DNA of 64,000 nt, taken from assembly GCF_002994745.2 (NCBI RefSeq), contig NC_037089.1:83042347-83106346 (forward strand), given 5' to 3'. The translations under genes were made by a program, and so were the position numbers. The notes under the pieces are model-generated. The model searched no databases. It had not been told where the DNA came from and saw only the letters and a list, made by a program, of their open reading frames with translations. Source of the stretch: Rosa chinensis (lineage: Eukaryota > Streptophyta > Magnoliopsida > Rosales > Rosaceae). Position 1 is the first letter of the stretch. The number at the start of each line of letters is the position of its first letter. Shown piece by piece: positions 5,024 to 59,804 of the stretch.

Positions 5024-5659
5024 GACAGAAGGGTAGGGTAGGAGAGATAGCTAGGTACTAGTGAAAGAGAGAATGATAGAGGAAAAATGATCGAGGGTGT
5101 GGTCTATTAGGGAAAGATATATATGTAGGTTTCAGAGTTTTCCTAATTCGAAGCGGACTTGGTGAATGAGGTCGAGTCAATTCCGCCTAGAAATAGGAAA
5201 AGGAAAAGGAAACAAGCGGTGGGCTTGTCATTTCCAAATAAAACTTGAAATGGTTTCCTTCTCCTATTCAATATAGGTTTTCTACTCCTTAATTTTCCAT
5301 TTGGCGAAGCCTTTTAATTCGTTTTTCAAAAAAATAAAAAAATAATGTTAGTTTTAGGAAATTGAGATTTGGGAGAGAATTTGATGTGCTTTCATTGATA
5401 ATAAGATGTCTATTTATATAGAGGATTACAAGCATAGAATCAAAGTTGTACATGAAAACATAATCGTACAATGATTGGATATCTACGAATATTTCAGAGA
5501 ATATCTCTAATACAAACCCTATTATAACTTGCACAAGTAACCTAGAGTTTGGGTCAGACAAATATTCTGGATTTATTTGAACATGAACATATAAAATGGG
5601 AGAAGAAATCTGACAAAATAAAAATAAATTTATAGAAAAATGAACAAAACTTAGATTTT
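5024..5659. other. Upstream region of the RING gene and AT-rich intergenic DNA
   Basis: Holds the RING gene promoter (TATATAT-like run near 5122) and AT-rich sequence. Short open frames here have no recognisable similarity. Confidence 0.5.
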
Positions 5660-5797
5660 GTAGCCTAGTACCATTTGGTCTAATGACATAAGTCTCTCAT
5701 TTGTAACTGAGAGATCGTGAGTTCAACCCATAGGCTAGTTATTGAATCTGAGTTGTTGATTTGATTAAAAAAAAATAATAATAATAAATAAAAGAAG
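5660..5797 (+). mobile_element. tRNA-derived SINE-like retroposon
   Basis: Starts with a tRNA-like A-box region (TAGCCTAGTACCATTTGGTC) and has a B-box match (GTGAGTTCAACCC) near 5718-5730, the internal Pol III promoter arrangement of SINEs. It ends in an A-rich tail with AAT repeats (about 5766-5797). Target duplications are not clear; a short repeat of AAAACTTCAAAATCT follows the tail. It is not an intact tRNA: no cloverleaf can be closed. Confidence 0.6.
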
Positions 5798-22232: not shown

Positions 22233-22499
22233 ATCTTGTTCTAAAGGCAATGCTACACTTATATTCTCATCTGACACAATTTCCTCAAAATCTGAGGTTA
22301 AATCCTCAAGGTTTGTATTGTGAACTTTTTCACTTAGAAACTTTACTTTATCTGTTTCAAAAATTCTATGTGAATGATGAGCATAATATAATTTATGGCC
22401 TTTAGATTTATCTGGATAAGCTATAAAATAGCAACTAACAGTTTTGGGGTCAAGTTTATTCAAGCTTGGATTATAAATCTTAGCTTCTGCATGACATCC

Positions 22500-23733
22500 C
22501 CAAACATATATGGCAGTAATGAAGACTAGGTTTCCTGCCACACCAAAGCTCAAAAGCAGTATTTTCTATAGCCTTACTAGGTGTCATGTTGCAAATATAA
22601 TTTGCAGTTTTTAAAGCCTCACCCCACAGAAATTTAGGAAAACCAGTTGTACACATCATACATCTAACCATGTTCAAAAGAGTTCTATTCTTTCTCTCTA
22701 CAACACCATTCTGTTGTGGGTTATAGGGTGTTGTATATTGAGCTTTAATTCCATTGTCTTGCAAAAAGAAGGCAAATGGACCCTTTTGTCGGCCGGATCC
22801 AATGTACTTTCCATAGAACTCACCACCTCTATCTGATCTTACTGTTTTGATTTTCTTTTCTAGTTGATTTTCTACCTCAGACTTAAAGATTTGAAAAGCT
22901 TTCAATGCTTGTGTTTTTTCTGAAAGTAGATAAAAATAACTGTATCTAGAAAATTCATCAATGAATGTGATGAAATACACATTCCCACATATAGTTTGAT
23001 GCCTAAATGGACCACATATATCAGTGTGTATGAGTTCTAGTAAGTTTTGGCTTCTATATGCAGTCTTCTTTCTAGTATTGGTTATTTTTCCCTTAAAGCA
23101 TTCCACACAGTCTGTTAGATCAGAAAAATCTAGTTCATTTAGGATTTTGTTTTTCACCAAAATTTTTAGTCTCTCTTTTGAAACATGGCCGAGCCTTCTA
23201 TGCCATAAAAATGCAGACTTTTCATTTAGTTTGGTTCTTTGAACACATGTTAAAGTGATAGTACTGTTTGTGTTATTTTCAACAAGTAAAATTTCTTGTT
23301 GAGCCATTGAACAATTTAATTGTAAATAATCATTCATAATAACACCAGAACCAATTTGAACAGAATTTTTAGAAATAAGAATTCCATTACTATCTATAAC
23401 AAGTCTACAACCAGATTTTACTAAAAGAGAAACTGAAACCAAATTCCTTCTCATGGAAGGTACATAAAAAACATTGTCCAAAACTAACAATTTTCCTAAT
23501 CCTAAATTGAGGTTTAAGGTTCCAATAGCCTTGACTGCCACTCTCATGCCATTGCCCACACACAAGTTCACTTCATCACTTTTTGGGATTCTCCTCCTTA
23601 TGAATTCTTGCAAAGAATTAGTAATATGAATAGGTGAGCCTGAATCTATCCACCAAGACTGTGATTCAACATTTATAAGATTAATTTCTAAAGAAAAAAC
23701 TGTATTAGAAAAAATCTTACCCTTTTTGGCTAA
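22500..23733 (-). pseudogene. Copia protease and integrase region
   Basis: Same frame as gag, after the TAG. WWIDSGSPIHI holds the aspartic protease DSG. A GAG-pre-integrase segment (FLWHRRLGHVSKERL) follows, then the integrase core with HTDICGPF (Asp), DNGIKAQYTTPYNPQQNGVVERK (second Asp and the Glu) and ANYICNMTPSKA. A frameshift near 22500 moves the continuation (KIYNPSLNKLDPKTVSCYFI) to another frame that runs to about 22185. Confidence 0.85.
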
Positions 23734-27859: not shown

Positions 27860-30800
27860 TCAGTTACTAGTAAATGGAAGTACTAAATCCATTTTCTGTA
27901 CTTCTGTGTCACACAGCACGCATTTGTGTGGGAAAAGACCAGAAGCCTCTATTGCCCGCAACTTACAGTCAGTGCACCACAGCAAGTGTTTACAAGGGAA
28001 ATTGGCCCATAGCATCTTCTGCTGGTTGCATGCAAAACACCTTCTTACCGATAATCTTTCCTTGTAAATCTGAACGAAGACCATAGAGTTAGATATAGAT
28101 AATATGCAGATGATTCATATAACCCATTAACACGCACTGTAACAGTAAGAACATCAAAATATATCTATTTTGCAGGCCATTGCTCACCTTGTAGAAATCA
28201 AATTCACGAAGGAAGTAGGATTTGCTCCATTTCTTGGACAGGGACTCCAAAACGAGATGCCGTCTTGGATCCCTAATATTTATACTTCCTTTATCCCCCG
28301 CACTGCACTGTCCCTTTTCATTGTCAGTCTCTCCGGCAAGCACGTCAGTTTCTTTCTGACCATAGAATAGAGGATCTGGTTTTAAGAATTGAAGGAACCT
28401 CAGGTGCACACATTGTCCTTTATCCTCTGCAGAGTTCATTTCAGGATACCCAGAGGAGGGTTTCTCTTGCCCATGGCTAGTGACACTTGAGCCAAACTTC
28501 TCACCAGCATTGCAAATGGAAAGGTCCTCAATACAGTTTGAATCACCACTAAAGTCAAGTGAAAGGTCCTGAAGGCACTTTGAATCAGCAGCATTGTCAG
28601 CTGAAATGTCCTGAAGACACTTTGTATCACTAATGCTTTCAATTGTAAGGTTCTGAAAACACTTTGAGTCACTGCCATTGTTAACTGAAAGGTCCTGAAA
28701 ACACTTCGAATGGTCCTGAAGACACTTTGAATCACCACAATCGCCACTTGAGAGGTCCAAAAGACACTTTGTATCACCGCCTTTGACAAGCAGTGCAGAC
28801 AGAGACAGAGTGTGAGGTGTTCTCAGTGTAGGAAGGAGTCGGCGTTGAGGCCTAGAAAATTTTGGCCGGAGGATCACGTGAGTTGGAGTTCCACGTTTGC
28901 AGATGGGGAGAATCTCAACAGTACATAAATCAGAGAAACATTTCACAAAGTCACTGAGCTTAGAGTAGCCCACAGATGAGTGATCCAGTTCTAACCCAAA
29001 TTTAGCCCTGAAGTCAGCTTTTAGAGAAGACAGAGCATAATTTGAATGCTTTGACAGACCTTGTAAGAACCCAGGAAACCACTTCTTGAAAACCTTTAGC
29101 CATGTAGGAGTGCTTGGATCCTCAGAGCTCTTGGTAACTTGAGGTTCAGTGGAACACGCCACTGGTTGTCCAAGGACTAATCTATCAGCCCAAGAACCTT
29201 GTTCAGGGTTATCACCTTCCATAATATTCTCGTTCGACTTCTGCTGTGGAAGCTGATTTTGAATATTCTTATCTTGTTGTCGTTGTTGAGGTGACATCTT
29301 CTCAAACTCAGCTCCCAAAACCAATTTTGGAATTAAACTTTTTATTTCAACTTTCTTGCCTCTCATGGTGATGTAGTGCGCTTGCATAGCTTCTGAAGCA
29401 GATTTCTCCTCTCTGAATGTGACAAAACCAAAGCCTCGAGATTGTATTTTGTTTTCTGTTTGAGTTACAATGACTATAGCATCGTCCACTGATCCAAACT
29501 CCTCTTCACAGAACTTTCCCAAATCATCTGCTTCACAAAGTAAATACAGAACCATGTTAGTCAGAAAAATAAACTTGTACATATCTGTTATTTAGATTAT
29601 TGATCCTGCTAGATAATCATGCTTATTACAACATAAATTATTTTGACAAAAGTTCATAGGTGCATTACCAGAGTCCACTGATGGAGGAAGTCCACCAACA
29701 AAGATTTTGTGTTTGAGTAGTTTAGCAGCAGAAAAATGACTCCGGTCTGCTCCCTCCTTCACTTTCCGAGACTCCTCCTCACAATGTGCATAAAAGCACT
29801 TAGCTCCTCTGACACATCCTCGATGCGAGTCAAAGTACTTACAAACCTCTGCCTTGGTGCTTGAGTTAACATTTCTAGCATTCACAGGCAGTAGAAACTT
29901 GAGAACAATGAACATAGTAAAGATATAAACATGCATGAGTAAATTAATGCCTGCTGACACACAAGCATATAAGACGGAACATTTTTTCTTTTCTCTGAAA
30001 GAGAAAACAAGCAACTGTGATGCATATAAGTTTATAACAATGATTTTACCTTTCATTAGCGGTGTCTTCATCTGTCAACTCTAAAGCCGTACATTTATGT
30101 TGATTGGGGAAAGCGTGATTAACTGCACATGAGAAAGTACAGATGTTAAATCAAATATACAGAAGATGGGTAAAGTTGCTTGATATATTATTTTCACATG
30201 TTTTAATAATGAACTTACTGAGGCTAACAGTGGTTGGGTTCAGCAATATGTAACGCATATCTTGAGAGGTTGCCAGGTCTATAGCTCTTTGCCTACTGGT
30301 ATTTTAAAAGTTTTGCAGAAATTCATGCAGACACATGTACAAAAGAAATGTTAGCATTCAAAGTTTTAACTAAAGAGGCTCTAGAACCCACTACTGGAAA
30401 GATACAAACACAATAGAACTGAAGAAGTTTTTCATTGTTCCTTACCGCAGATTAAGGACTTCACTATTTGCTCCCCAGGTTAAAAGAAGCTCAGTACACT
30501 CCTTACTCTCATTCTTCACAGCGAAAAACAGGGGCGTTTCTTTCATTTCCGTCCTATATTGGACGCCAACTGGGTCTTCCAACAGAAGGACCTGTCAATG
30601 GAAAAAATTCATGGCTACTGAGTTTCATGAAAACTTAAAGGGTGATGTTAACCAATGTATTTCTGGTTGCCAAGCAAGTTGATTTGTTAAGCAAATTGAA
30701 GAAGTAGACGAGGAAACATATGATACCTCAAGTGCCTCTGAATTACCATTACCGGCAGCAATATGAAATGCTGTTAACCCCAATCTATTCCTTTGGCTTA

Positions 30801-37090: not shown

Positions 37091-38680
37091 AAGACTATTT
37101 ATTTTAAGTTGGGTTATTAAAAAGCGAGAAGGCGAAAAAACAAAGGATCGGTTATGACATTTTTTTTTTTGAGAAACAGGGTCGGTTATGACATTCACTC
37201 TGTCAAAAACCATTTTCGAGTATGAAAATAATGTCAAGCATAAGGAACTAAGGATTTGGTTATGACTTTTCTAGGATTAGGTTAATTTGCTTATATGCAT
37301 GAGGAGGATATGTAATAATTTATCTTATAGGTTATAATTGTCGCACTGCACCTAAGACTGAAGGGTTTTTGAGTGTTTAAACTGATAGCCCCAGGAATGG
37401 AATTGAAATCCATACAATTATTGTATTTGATTTAGGAGATTACGTAGGATTCCTTTTCCTGTTTAATTCCTAGATTATAGTAATTGTTGTCTTACATGCT
37501 AACACATCTCTTGTATAAACCTCCTTTGTACGTATGAATGAGAATATATCTTTAACCAGTATTCTTTTCTTTCAAAACGCGGCCTTATATATAGGTTATG
37601 TCGCTAGAGTAAACCATATGGAATTCTTTTATACTCAATCAGTCATGAATTTCAAAGGAGGTTCTTTGTGGGAGATCACTAGAAAGAGACCAAGGAGTAT
37701 AGTCGCTATAGGTGCTTCGATTAGCTTTCTGATTATAATTACATGCATCCGCGTAGCGCTGATTCTATTGATGCTTCGTGTTTTTCTAGTTTTTCTTGCA
37801 TGTTTTTTCGCATACAACCGCCTATGGTTTCCTCTCGCTCTAGGTTTTGGTGGTTTTATCCTCACCGTCTTTATTAGAAAGATGCCTTACCAAACAAAGA
37901 AGGATTTGGCTCGAAAGCTTATTACTACTGATGAGCTAAAAAGGAAGAAATTGGCTCGATTTGCGGTTCGAATTTTTACTGTTTTGTTTACATACTACCG
38001 CTTCACATTGCTGGATAAAGAGAAGCTAATGTCGAGTATTATAACTATTCTGCTGAAAGTAAGAAGAAGAAAACAAAATCCAGAAGATGAGGAAAGCAGC
38101 AGTGCTTGTACTAGCTTGTGGTCTGAGCAACTGCCAGAAGATATCATGCAATTGATTCTACAACGGCTACCCCTATCCGATTATCTTCAATGCAGTAAAG
38201 TATGCGTTTCTTGGCGAGGTACTGTTAAAAAGGCGTTTTCGAGCCAGCATTGTCATCCTCTTCCTCAACTACGTACCATGTCTTATGCTCTCTTCTCATC
38301 CTTTTTCCCTCAATAATCAGTGGTTCTTTAGTCCGAGTGATCAGAAATTTTGCAAACCGAGTTCACCATATATAGATAGACGGAACTGTATTGGGTCATC
38401 TGAGGGGTGGTTGATCATGTCCGACTGTCTGAGGTCGAATGTTGGCGTCCCGAAGGTTATTTGAGTCCTTGGTCAACTGACCTACTGTATATGCAGAACC
38501 CTCCTAGCTTTGCTAGTGCAAGCTTCTTCTTGAATCCAATATCAGGTGACCGAGTCATGCTCCCATCCCCATCCACAATTCCATTATCCAGCAACTTTGA
38601 ATCTTTCTTCTTGACCAAAGTAGTAGCCTCTTCAGCACCAACAAGCCGGCACTGTTTTGTGGCCGGCTTGGGTACAGTAT

Positions 38681-41008: not shown

Positions 41009-41754
41009 TGTTGGGAAATTAATCCCCCCGTCATGCAAGTACTACTAGTAGAGATGGAAAGAAGAAATAAGCAAGCCAATAAGACAACAAGATTTTAACG
41101 AGGTTCGGCCAATTTCCTTGCCTACGTCCTCAGAGAGTTTCTATCTTCACTAATGAGAGAATTACACAAGTACAAGATTACACCACTCTAGTTTATACAC
41201 AACTAGAGCACTCAAGTTTATACCCAACCCAAGCCTCGTATCCAATCGGATACCCCTTGTACACCCTCTCTCAATCCTAGAAGATTACTCTATCCCAAGA
41301 GCTATACACACTCTTGAACACAACTCACTTTGCTTCTATACATGAAGACCCTTAGAGTTGTTTCTGCTCTCTCCTCTCTGGAGGTTGGGCTCTCTGCCCT
41401 CTCTCACCTTCTGCTGCTGCCGATATGCCAATATATAGGCAGTGCACTTCATGCACATACCATGCAGCTCATCACATGCAAGTGGAAGTAAAGACAAGTG
41501 TGAACACATGAAAAGCAAAGTCATGCTTTTCCATTTCTTACGGTGTGTGCTTGCATGCCACAATGATTGCATGTTTCCTCTACTTTTCCTTCTTCTTTTA
41601 TGCTTTCACTTTCCTTGTCTTCTGCATGTTTTCCAGCCATGTTTGCCGCATGCTTTCTTTGCATGGAGAAGAATCCAAACACCTTTTTCTCTTTCACATG
41701 CACACATGCTTTCCTTGCTTCTTTGTCTCCTCCAATTAAGGAGGGATCCCAACA
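41009..41754 (-). repeat. 5' LTR
   Basis: 746 bp. Near-identity to the other copy implies recent insertion. Confidence 0.95.
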
Positions 41755-42530
41755 AGTATATTGTCACTTGGCTTTGTGTAGGCCAACCGATGAATCATGG
41801 ACTCTCATAAAGGCAGAGGAAGACATCGGCGAGCTTCTGTTTTTCGATATAGAAATAATTGATGCAAAATTATATGCTGCAACTTGGAAGCAGGAACCGG
41901 AAGTTTCAATACTAGTGTTTGAAATCCAAGATGTTGAAGATGCCAATAAGCCCCTTAGCTATAGGGTTGAGAGTTCGAACTTGCTTCGTTCACGGGCGAC
42001 TCCGGAGAGGTGGACGGCTGATGGACTCCACGTTGGTGACTGGATTCACTTGGCAAAAGATTCTTCATCAAAGGAGTTATTTATGATTTTTCGTAGGAGT
42101 AGTTTTGCCCTTGAGGAGGATCAAATAATCTCTTGGGAGAAGATCTTATATTGTCATAATTTCAGCATTCCAGCTAGGACAGAAGGATTTCGAGTGTTCA
42201 AACTAGAGTGCAATGTTAATGGTTCTTGCGATCGGTGGGTAGAAATTGAAGACCTTGGTGATCCAATATTGTTTATCAGTTACTTTAGCAACATATTCAT
42301 CCCGGCAACTAATAGCCTAAATCCTCATAACCCCGCTAACTCGCTTGGAAGAAACTGTATCTATTTCGCTTCTGATCATCTCTGTTTATCATCATCATCA
42401 ACATGGAAGAAACCATGTAGGGGTATTTTCTTTCGAAGATTGGCGCGTTGCGCATTTCAGTTTCTCCAATGATCCTTCTCAAACCAAATTATTCACTGAT
42501 CCCGTCTGGTTCATGCCGAATCCTTGGTAG

Positions 42531-54597: not shown

Positions 54598-55538
54598 GGT
54601 TTTTTGAGGTTTTGGGGGAGGGGAGAGGACTCCTGAGGGGTTTAACAGTTTGTGTTGGTTAGGAGAAGTTGGGGGCTTTAGAAAATGGAAGTTAGGGCAA
54701 ACGTCAGATTGGAGGTAAGTAAAAATGTTTTACAGTTTACTGGTTTACCTTTTTACTGTCTTAGTCTAATCGGGTAAAAATTTCGGGTCAGACCCCAATC
54801 TCGGAATTGTCATCTGATTAGGAATATGTCGATGTTCTTGTGATTCGAGAACTCTCATATTTCTAAGAGTGTGTTTTACTCTCGTAAATTTTATTTTGGC
54901 ACAATCAAACTTCTACATTTGACATAGTAATGTTGTTTCGTATTACAAGTTAAGCACTTTGATCTTTGTAGTTTTTTACGTACACGGTATCTTAACTCCC
55001 TTGAGAGATCCTACTTTACTAGATGTCTCTAACTTTAAATTAGTCATTCTTTTATGAGAACTTTGAGAATTTAGAATGGAAGAAGAAATTGTACTCCAAA
55101 ATGTGAGGGATAAAATAAAAACGAGCAATAATAGACATTCTCGAAAAAAAGTTTAAAATTTATTTTTATGAGAAGACGAAATTATTTTATGTACAGGAGT
55201 GAGGAGAGCTCAACTTACCACACAGATTAGAATCTTTGACACTATGAATGTTAAAACAATTCATCCTTATAAGTTAATAGTAGACCAAACAGAGAGAGAG
55301 AGAGAGACAGAGAGCTTTATTAAGAGGTAAAATGTAATTTACAAGTTGTTTTTAGTCTTAGATTGTTTTAGCCTTTTGGGGTCCCATAACTCATAAGTTT
55401 TTGTAGTCTACCTAGGTCAAAATTGGTTAGTTTTTCCCGGTATACCTGTACTGTTAGTCAGTGTCATGCAAATTTTGCTCCCAATAAGGCACCAGTATAT
55501 GCATGAATGAAACTGGGTTCTTCCCATCTGAGCATCCT
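54598..55538. other. Intergenic: THADA promoter side
   Basis: THADA 5' flank, then AT-rich DNA with a short GA run (55291-55313). No coding potential. Confidence 0.5.
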
Positions 55539-55546
55539 TATAAATA
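55539..55546 (+). promoter_or_regulatory. TATA box of the hairpin-array transcript
   Basis: TATAAATA in a CCTTATAAATAGA context. A start about 25-32 bp downstream would fall at about 55565-55575, 40-50 bp before the first hairpin. No protein-coding frame follows, pointing to a Pol II non-coding transcript. Confidence 0.6.
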
Positions 55547-55569
55547 GACACATGCTTGCTCTTCAGTCT

Positions 55570-56232
55570 TCAACAGCTCCCACAGAGCTCGTAGACTCAA
55601 ACAGAGTGAGGTTGTAGATAAGAGTTGAAGGACACTGAACCAATTCTAGACCAAAAGATCTTCTTATCTACCCTAGTATGGTTCGGTTTCCTCCAACATC
55701 TTATCTAGCACCTCCTCTCCGACATTCATTCATTGTTCTTTTGGAAGCTGTAAGTGAGAATTGGAGAGGACTAAGCAAATCGAACTCTCAATGAAGAACT
55801 TTTAATTTGTTTAGTTTTCTCCAATATCTCATTTCCAGCATTTAAAGTAAAATTTATAGTTATTTTCGTTAATTTAGAGGTTGTATGTGAGAACTGAAGG
55901 GAACTAAACATATTAACCTCTTGGTGGGAAATCCCTAGCTAGTTTATTTAGTTTCCTCCAATGTCTCATCTCCGGCATCTAAAGTGCAACTCTTATACGT
56001 ATTCTACGTTTAGAAGTTGGATGTAAGAATTAGAGGAAATTAAGCAAATTAACAGTGATTCCTAATTTGTTTAATTTCCTCTAATATCTCATATCCTACA
56101 TCTAAAGCGAAATCTCATGATACTTTCTCTATTTAAAAGTCGTATGTGAGAGTTGGAGGATACCAAACAAATTCACCTCATAATAACCGCAATTTGTTTG
56201 GTTTTCTCCAACATCTCATCTCCGACTACTAA
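55570..56232 (+). ncRNA. Tandem array of five hairpins, candidate polycistronic miRNA-like locus
   Basis: Five similar stem-loops in one orientation: H1 55615-55707, H2 55756-55830, H3 55888-55967, H4 56026-56089, H5 56148-56217. H2 pairs 25 positions with three G-U pairs and one bulged A. H4 pairs about 24 with one G-U and the same bulged A. H5 pairs about 25 with one mismatch and the same bulge. The 3' arms share a motif of the type TTTAGTTTTCTCCAATATCT. Loops are 11-36 nt. Between H2, H4 and H5 at least four stem positions change as pairs (A-U/G-C, C-G/U-A). Arms, loop size and stem length fit plant miRNA precursors. No known miRNA family is recognised; small RNA data would decide. Confidence 0.65.
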
Positions 56233-57140: not shown

Positions 57141-59804
57141 TCAAGCAAGGTACCTGTACAATTTTCTATCTGTTTTATCCCTCTCCAAAAACTCTCGCTC
57201 GATGAGGGACTCAATACGCTTCTTTATTACTACAGGATTGGGCAAGAATCGCGCCTGCAGCTGCTTTGTGACCTCAGCAACTATATTATTGTGATCCAGT
57301 ACCCGCCTTGACTTCATGATCCTCACAATTGCTGCTTCAATCTGGGGCTTTCTGTCTTCCTCTACTCTCTGCCGGGTTTCTAGGTTTTCTGGTTCAGACT
57401 CCCTTTGTGCAACCACGGTACCTATCTTTACTTTAAAGAACTTGCTCGTGAACTTGTCATTGAAGAAAAAGGTATCATCCTCAACTATGTCCTTGCTCAT
57501 TGGCTCCTTCCGAAGAACATTCTTCCCCTTAACACAGGCCAGAGACTGCAGGCACCTCTTCAATTCAGTGGCTGGGATATCTGTAGCCTGCTCGATTTCC
57601 TTATACGTCAACTGGTCAGCATTGTTGAATAGCATCAGCACACACATCTGATACGTCGAAACATTCAGCTCATGCTTCTGGCCCTTTCCAAAAGTTGTTT
57701 TCAAATCAGCTGTTCCCATATTAGTTTGCCAGGACAATCTCCGCCCAGTATGGGTCCCTAGATAATAACTCTTGAACTTCTCACATACCCACATAATTTC
57801 AGCTGGAAGGTTGCATGTCACACTTGGCTGAGTGGGCCATGAACCTGTGGTGAGGACCTGGACTGTTAGTGTTGGGCTATCACCTAACTGAGGACCAACT
57901 GCAGTGTAGAACCCATGCATTGTATCTTGAGAGGTTTTCATATCAGTGAACATACCCTCCAACTTGGAAGTAAATTGATATCCACATTCTGTTTTGAGCT
58001 TTACAATCAGACTTCTTTCTGCATCGTCAGAAACAGTTTTGCCTGAAAGAAGCCTCTTTGCCAAGTGTTGCTTGTAATACTTTTCAAACACATCTTTCTC
58101 CTGAAGGTAACGGAAAAGCATCATGACCTTGTCCAGTACAACCTCTACATCCTCCTCGCTAACCCCTCTAAGACCTTTCCGAAGCTTGTCATCCACAAAG
58201 AGAGAAATAAATTCAGGGGACCGGGCATTCAAATTAATGAAGTACTCAAAAGAAGAGTTTAAAGCATTCTGGAATGTCTTGTCATTGTTAAATGCCAAAC
58301 TGATGATTTTGTCGTACTTATCCTTCATATCAAGGAGACGTTGCACAAAGTCTACAGGATCCCTTAACCTTTCTGGGTCAGTAACTAGATGCTTTCCAGT
58401 ATCTCGGATGTAAGCAGTCATGACATCTCTTACAATTACAAGCCCATTCTGCACTCTGCGAAACAAGTTGTACATTCTTCCCAAGTCTTCATATTTGTCA
58501 TCTACAAGCATATTAACTAAACCCGAGCTTTCCATATGAACTAGCCTGTTCATGTGACTTTCAATCATCTCCTTTTCCACCACACTGGTAATCTTAGCTT
58601 CACTTTTAGCATCTAAGTAATGGGACACTCTCTCCATCTCCTCATTTAGCCGCCTTTCGGCCTTCTTTAAATAGTTTCCACAATCACATGACTCGATGAA
58701 CTCTTGAGACTCACAGCGGTAAAAATCAGCTGAAACTTCAAGAAAATGCTTCTCAAAGTCTTCTTGGTAAACATAAGAACCTAAATCCATTAACATTTTT
58801 ATAATATTCCGCATCAAGCCTCTGTTGATTACGTCACCATTTCTTTCTCGAAGCACAAGCTCAAGAAGCGTGTCCAAAAGCCTAGACTGGGTTTTGCTGG
58901 AGTGAATGACGACATCCCTCCAAAGGTTCAGACCAAGCTCATGAACAGGGGTTTTGTGGGTGCTTGGAATAAAAGTTCTGTCCATGTACATCAATATGTC
59001 TCGAATCATCTGCAACGCCTTGTTATGCTCTGCCCATTTTCTGTTAAGCTCTTCCAGAAACAGCTCTCCCTGAGCAGCTTCAATCGATTTGGATATTTCC
59101 ATCAGATGATAAGTCATGGTTCTCACCAGACCAGAGTACAGTTTCTCTCCAAATTTGTGCAGCACCATATTGTAAGCATTCCTGAAAGACATGTACTTAA
59201 ACATCAGAAGCATAGAGTTCTAATATCTGAATCAAAATGCAGTGAGAAAGTACAACTCCCAAGCGCTTGCAACTTATCTTGCAACGAGAATATAAAGTAA
59301 ACTATTGAAAATAGATTCCAGACAACTTTCTTAAAAAAAAAAAGTCAGCATGATTAAGACTTAAGAGAGTGGAATAAGAACTCTAAAGCTTCAATCTTAT
59401 AATCAATGATGGTTAATATGATAACCTAAACATTATTTTGTTCATATGAAGTGCATAACAGAAAGACATCAGATAGATTGACTAATTTGGATAGCAGTAC
59501 AAATCACAAGTCATGTGACAGGACACAAGGTAAAAATGCTTCTTGGCAAAACTGTTTGCTCTAACATTAAGCATGATAGCATTGGCAAGCCTCAAATGAA
59601 AGGGGACCTACATGTCGGACAATTTTTCAGGCTATCAACTTTTATTGCATGGCTCACTGACTTATGCATGGTCTTTCTCTTTCTTTTCCCTCTCATATAT
59701 TCTCATTGTTAACTAAACCTGCCCCGCTTTCCCACTCAACCACATGGGTATTATTCTCAAATAGATAAAACCTCCAAGAGCTTTTCAAAAAAGACAATGT
59801 ATAA

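Follow-up and report, generated by a model that had tools for sequence, protein, structure and literature searches.

The five tandem stem-loops on the + strand of the analysed window, a 64-kb stretch of Rosa chinensis DNA, most probably form a MIR2275 gene cluster (we put the chance at roughly nine in ten): five hairpins that follow a TATA box and are predicted to share a single transcript, which would yield five 22-nt miR2275 variants and act as a trigger of 24-nt phasiRNAs in meiotic anthers. MIR2275 is known in both grasses and eudicots, where its clustered genes supply the 22-nt trigger for the 24-nt phasiRNAs of meiosis (PMC6367383), and by sequence the rose hairpins are not a new family but a well-preserved case of this known kind. 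The initial annotation had proposed a new miRNA-like cluster; it was right about a tandem microRNA cluster whose RNA pairing bears signs of selection, but not about the novelty, as Rfam already lists the family. The array consists of the following elements, with mature and star positions predicted.

55539-55546, + strand: TATAAATA, predicted core promoter TATA box (from sequence; conserved at the second array)
55606-55716, + strand: hairpin H1, star 55621-55641, mature 55682-55703; MIR2275 36.9 bits, fold z -7.9
55742-55844, + strand: hairpin H2, star 55757-55777, mature 55810-55831; MIR2275 63.8 bits, fold z -8.8
55875-55981, + strand: hairpin H3, star 55890-55910, mature 55947-55968; MIR2275 41.8 bits, fold z -2.9
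56011-56104, + strand: hairpin H4, star 56026-56046, mature 56070-56091; MIR2275 56.1 bits, fold z -10.7
56134-56231, + strand: hairpin H5, star 56149-56169, mature 56197-56218; MIR2275 64.2 bits, fold z -8.8

Coordinates and folding bear out the description of five tandem + strand stem-loops behind a TATA box. The hairpins follow each other at start-to-start distances of 136, 133, 136 and 123 bp, which keeps the regular spacing first reported and narrows its range from 123-137 to 123-136 bp, while the distance from TATAAATA to the foot of the H1 stem is about 57 bp and not about 70 bp as had been given. The stretch had been described as free of protein frames, and indeed no stop-to-stop frame of 120 amino acids or more occurs between 54729 and 57141. 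The folding check that had been suggested, with fold energy expressed as a z-score against dinucleotide shuffles, placed H1, H2, H4 and H5 clearly beyond the shuffles, with H3 modest and the weakest of the five. The single unpaired base that had been noticed in every 3' arm falls, in all five hairpins, on position 17 of the 22-nt strand predicted as mature; in H3 two bases next to this bulge are also unpaired, and H1 and H5 carry additional unpaired bases. It also holds that the non-Watson-Crick positions of H2 are G-U pairs, since its duplex contains three of these and the bulge, with no mismatch. Predicted stars are 21 nt long throughout H1-H5, so that the bulge leads to a 22/21-nt duplex, and the five hairpins give five different predicted 22-nt matures, all on the 3' arm.

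Assignment to MIR2275 comes from an Rfam scan of the whole window, in which MIR2275 (RF03896) was the sole family to reach its gathering score, twice, both times within the array. H2 and H5 exceed this score of 60.5 bits; H4 lies below it, and H1 and H3 lie far below. At a loose threshold all five hairpins match RF03896 on the + strand, each above its own minus-strand score (the minus strand of the array also matches the family, at lower scores), and the other families in the table are weak and far under their cut-offs. The RF03896 model carries the same one-base asymmetry as the array hairpins, and all five predicted mature strands, whose ends are themselves predictions, are two or three bases off the MIR2275 consensus. 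A separate, young family of tandem microRNAs directed against F-box genes had been brought up on the strength of such clusters in the related strawberry (cited in PMC6139297), and F-box-type genes are present in the same window. With the hairpins placed in MIR2275 by Rfam, this reading is hardly credible, and a scan of the window with the five 22-mers lends the F-box idea no support: at a score of 7 or better, neither F-box-type frame (37519-38316; 41567-42472) contained a site, and besides the array itself 5363-5384 alone was found. Text searches with 20-mers of H2, H3, H4 and H5 (H3 and H4 in one spelling, H1 left out) gave no match in the literature text. Rosa chinensis and miR2275 came together in PMC8368212, which in the portion available deals mainly with 21-nt phasiRNAs; the locus may appear in published supplementary lists.

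The array has relatives elsewhere in the genome, of which 515 Mb in 53 contigs were searched. The family search returned at least 24 matches at four places, at least 16 of them on the hairpin strand and seven of the 24 over the cut-off, counts that are lower bounds with 61 of 96,874 candidates scored. A DNA search with the array found, among the matches listed and again as a lower bound, no locus beyond the two large arrays and a relic.

Window array, + strand: MIR2275 cluster of five hairpins (family search)
C5:64766403-64767286 by family search (the array as a whole L005:3399-4290, C5:64766398-64767289): second MIR2275 array, seven hairpins
C2:12866625-12866895: MIR2275 pair, two hairpins (family search)
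C2:42420245-42420465, minus strand: MIR2275 pair, two hairpins (family search)
C2:42791839-42792041 (L013, L036): decayed MIR2275 relic (DNA search)

With a model derived from H1-H5, the seven C5 hairpins score 62-86 bits, and four of them also pass the gathering threshold of Rfam. H5 and the last hairpin of the C5 array are mutual best matches at 82% identity. A tree of the 12 hairpins is little resolved (one of nine inner branches starred). Hairpins four and five of the C5 array are 96% identical and represent a recent tandem duplication. The relic is colinear with the first part of the window array from H1 onwards and scores 22-25 bits with the window-hairpin model; against Rfam it gave no match up to an E-value of 0.1. 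Fold z-scores are -2.2, -0.2 and -0.2 for the three hairpin-like stretches of the relic, whose stems are largely unpaired, as compared with -3.8 to -10.1 for the 11 hairpins of the C5 array and the two pairs. The relic thereby serves as an internal control that shows what such stems become once pairing is no longer kept.

The relic also shows that MIR2275 arrays can decay, which is one reason to consider that the window array, MIR2275 by descent, may be working only in part, with H2, H4 and H5 processed and H1 and H3 drifting out of the family. The 36.9 and 41.8 bits of these two against 56-64 for the others, the weak fold of H3, and the position of H1 on a long branch, with 51-61% identity to the other hairpins, agree with such drift. 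The stem of H1 is nevertheless long and still paired (-51.4 kcal/mol), with its bulge unmoved, and both H1 and H3 keep their predicted 22-nt mature within two or three bases of the consensus. We regard partial function as a tentative possibility.

Tandem inverted repeats of which both strands fold could also be copies of a transposon whose hairpins give rise to 24-nt siRNAs only. A dispersed transposon family, which the initial annotation had named as the finding that would speak against a microRNA cluster, was rejected on account of too few genomic copies: the 515 Mb hold two large arrays and one relic by DNA search and four clusters by family search, both as lower bounds, and within the window there is no further copy of the array, short chance matches aside. 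Arms that are more conserved than loops argue in the same direction, and we give this origin next to no probability.

This conservation is part of what we regard as signs of selection on RNA pairing, read from aligned hairpins. The claim of compensatory changes made for H2, H4 and H5 extends to the whole array, in which 12 of 39 predicted pairs show a two-sided change in one hairpin or more, while several other predicted pairs are broken in one or two of them. The window and C5 arrays taken together, with 12 hairpins, show the same pattern, which is lost in the relic. Across these 12, 93.7% of cells pair, and two-sided changes affect 11 of 29 pairs, against a mean of 4.5 in 500 shuffles (none as high) and two or three when partners were slid as a control; both controls lean towards structure, since these very hairpins supplied it, and both leave the relatedness among the 12 hairpins in place. 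Mean pairwise identity is 87% for the mature, 81% for the star and 50% for the loop. As tandem near-copies can convert, and as the controls leave relatedness untouched, the pair changes might stem from arm-to-arm gene conversion and not from selection on the RNA. The bulge at mature position 17, however, is constant in 12 of 12 hairpins while the loops have diverged to 50%, and the relic stems have mostly lost their fold, which makes conversion a very improbable source of the pattern.

The similarity between the two large arrays includes their upstream DNA.

55486-55586, + strand: promoter block common to the second MIR2275 array (L005:3257-3355), local score 63
55499-55513, + strand: ATGCATGAATGAAAC, 15 bases identical in both large arrays, 10 exact genomic copies

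The block contains ATGCATGAATGAAAC, ATCTGAG and CTTATAAATA together with a stretch past the TATA box, and transcription would start about 25-35 bp after TATAAATA. Its local score of 63 compares with a maximum of 30 in 1000 dinucleotide shuffles and of 37 among 180 real 300-mers of the window, and three blocks farther upstream of this promoter block of about 100 bp score 16 each. Past the last hairpin of the two arrays, homology was not significant (score 22 against a shuffle maximum of 33). The genome has 10 exact copies of ATGCATGAATGAAAC, against two of the reversed control, and a TATA box follows within 120 bp at two of the 10, which are the two large arrays, 40-45 bp on. At both two-hairpin clusters the promoter block was not found (scores 19-23). 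The relic shows weaker similarity to it, with scores of 37 against the window array and 29 against the C5 array that come without a shuffle baseline, and no TATA box was found in its promoter alignment. Upstream of the pair at C2:12.87 Mb (L034, about 250 bp before 1623), TGCATG stands 35 bp before a TATA box, a layout like that of the large arrays without sequence homology to them. We also considered ATGCATGAATGAAAC as a common switch of arrays and targets, and rejected it as its core GAATGAAAC occurs in none of 19 candidate target loci within 800 bp upstream.

From this comparison, promoter and array were probably duplicated together. Duplication along with neighbouring genes was rejected. 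The window array occupies the gap between a leftward THADA/Trm732-like gene, whose frame ends at 54729, and a minus-strand cullin gene (57141-59219), the end of which faces the array. Comparison with roughly 23 kb to each side of the C5 array turned up neither THADA nor cullin; what matched was one frame (window 5292-5696) and a few repeat-like stretches of DNA. The closest named relative of the THADA protein, in a database clustered at 90%, is from Argentina anserina (90% over 61% of the query). Elsewhere in the window, a minus-strand frame at 22480-23733 carries retrotransposon integrase and GAG-pre-integrase domains and is, as we take it from the domain order, of Copia type. Another minus-strand frame (28089-29591) encodes a protein with RRM and OST-HTH/LOTUS domains of just 75-82% identity to named Rosa proteins, which a paralogue could explain.

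It is conceivable, if doubtful, that a single transcriptional cassette exists in two copies, the two large arrays. In this reading a dedicated promoter module of about 100 bp (ATGCATGAATGAAAC, ATCTGAG and the TATA box) would drive an array of several trigger variants, these variants and the target sites across the genome would diversify together, and whole arrays would be born by duplication and die by decay. If this were true, the module would offer a eudicot route to the meiotic switch-on of miR2275. Rice pri-miR2275 depends on TIP2, and the promoter of pri-miR2275b is not bound by EAT1 (PMC5825165, as far as available). In the portions of the literature covered, we found no description of how miR2275 is switched on in eudicot anthers and no earlier description of the shared promoter block, the word 'promoter' being absent from the main text of PMC6367383 as far as available. 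The short promoter module of the two large arrays offers a concrete, testable lead on the control of miR2275.

The array would act along the published pathway (PMC6367383, PMC8368212, PMC12337324). Pol II would transcribe it at meiosis as one RNA, a single precursor being expected from the single TATA box, and DCL1 would process this RNA into five slightly different 22-nt miR2275 variants, 22 nt being the typical length of phasiRNA triggers (PMC6367383). AGO1-guided cleavage of 24-PHAS transcripts would follow, and then copying by RDR6 and dicing by a DCL3-type enzyme to 24-nt phasiRNAs in meiotic anthers. Reads of miR2275 have been reported from rose petals at a low level (PMC3655976), and in peach miR2275 rises along pollen development (PMC8098804).

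Candidate targets for such a trigger are numerous. The complement of the miR2275 consensus occurs at 269 sites with three or fewer mismatches, up to 16 of which belong to MIR2275 hairpins themselves, against 14 for the reversed pattern, a control that does not keep dinucleotides. Among 30 site loci that were fetched, 11 were hairpins, and the remaining 19 showed flank similarity in only three of 171 pairs (800 bp on each side). The excess of sites and their mostly unrelated flanks indicate that trigger and probable targets are both present in the genome. Litchi 24-PHAS loci are likewise reported as unrelated apart from the miR2275 site (PMC6367383), and in rice phasing begins within that site (PMC5825165). 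Several candidate sites lie as close pairs or duplicated loci (C6:2873154-2873696; C3:22179536 and 22275877; L071/L074; L053/L054), as clustered 24-PHAS loci would. In the 73 site sequences listed, 75 of 182 substitutions coincide with a variant of the family, a count that the null, with a mean of 62.6, reached in 11 of 5000 trials, yet co-diversification of trigger and targets is suggestive only, because G-to-A changes dominate. Together these data give a map for rose of a predicted meiotic small-RNA trigger, its sister arrays, a dead relic and about 250 candidate target sites, to which the shared promoter block, the relic as an internal control and the site census are the additions made here.

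The strawberry F-box microRNA clusters (Xia et al. 2015, cited in PMC6139297) resemble the rose array in being clustered and in coming from a close relative, and one of them triggers phasiRNAs; they target F-box genes, whereas the rose array has no such site in the window. The miR11308 clusters of the Rosoideae are polycistronic reproductive phasiRNA triggers in rose and strawberry, but differ, by description and not by sequence, in triggering 21-nt pre-meiotic phasiRNAs (PMC8368212). Grass MIR2275 (RF03896; rice pri-miR2275a/b, PMC5825165) shares family sequence, structure and presumed trigger role with the array; unlike grasses, eudicots are without DCL5, and a DCL3-type enzyme has been proposed in its place (PMC6367383, PMC8368212). 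Polycistronic MIR2275 clusters of eudicots have been published, and in strawberry they reach six stem-loops (PMC6367383). The six-hairpin cluster of Fragaria vesca, also a member of the Rosaceae, has tandem stem-loops tens of nucleotides apart, a 3'-arm mature, a duplex bulge (such bulges are marked in the figure legends of Xia et al. 2019, PMC6367383) and a 22-nt product; the rose array likewise has tandem stem-loops, and the other features are predicted for it. The rose array differs from it in having five hairpins with five predicted matures, accompanied in the same genome by a seven-hairpin sister array and a relic.
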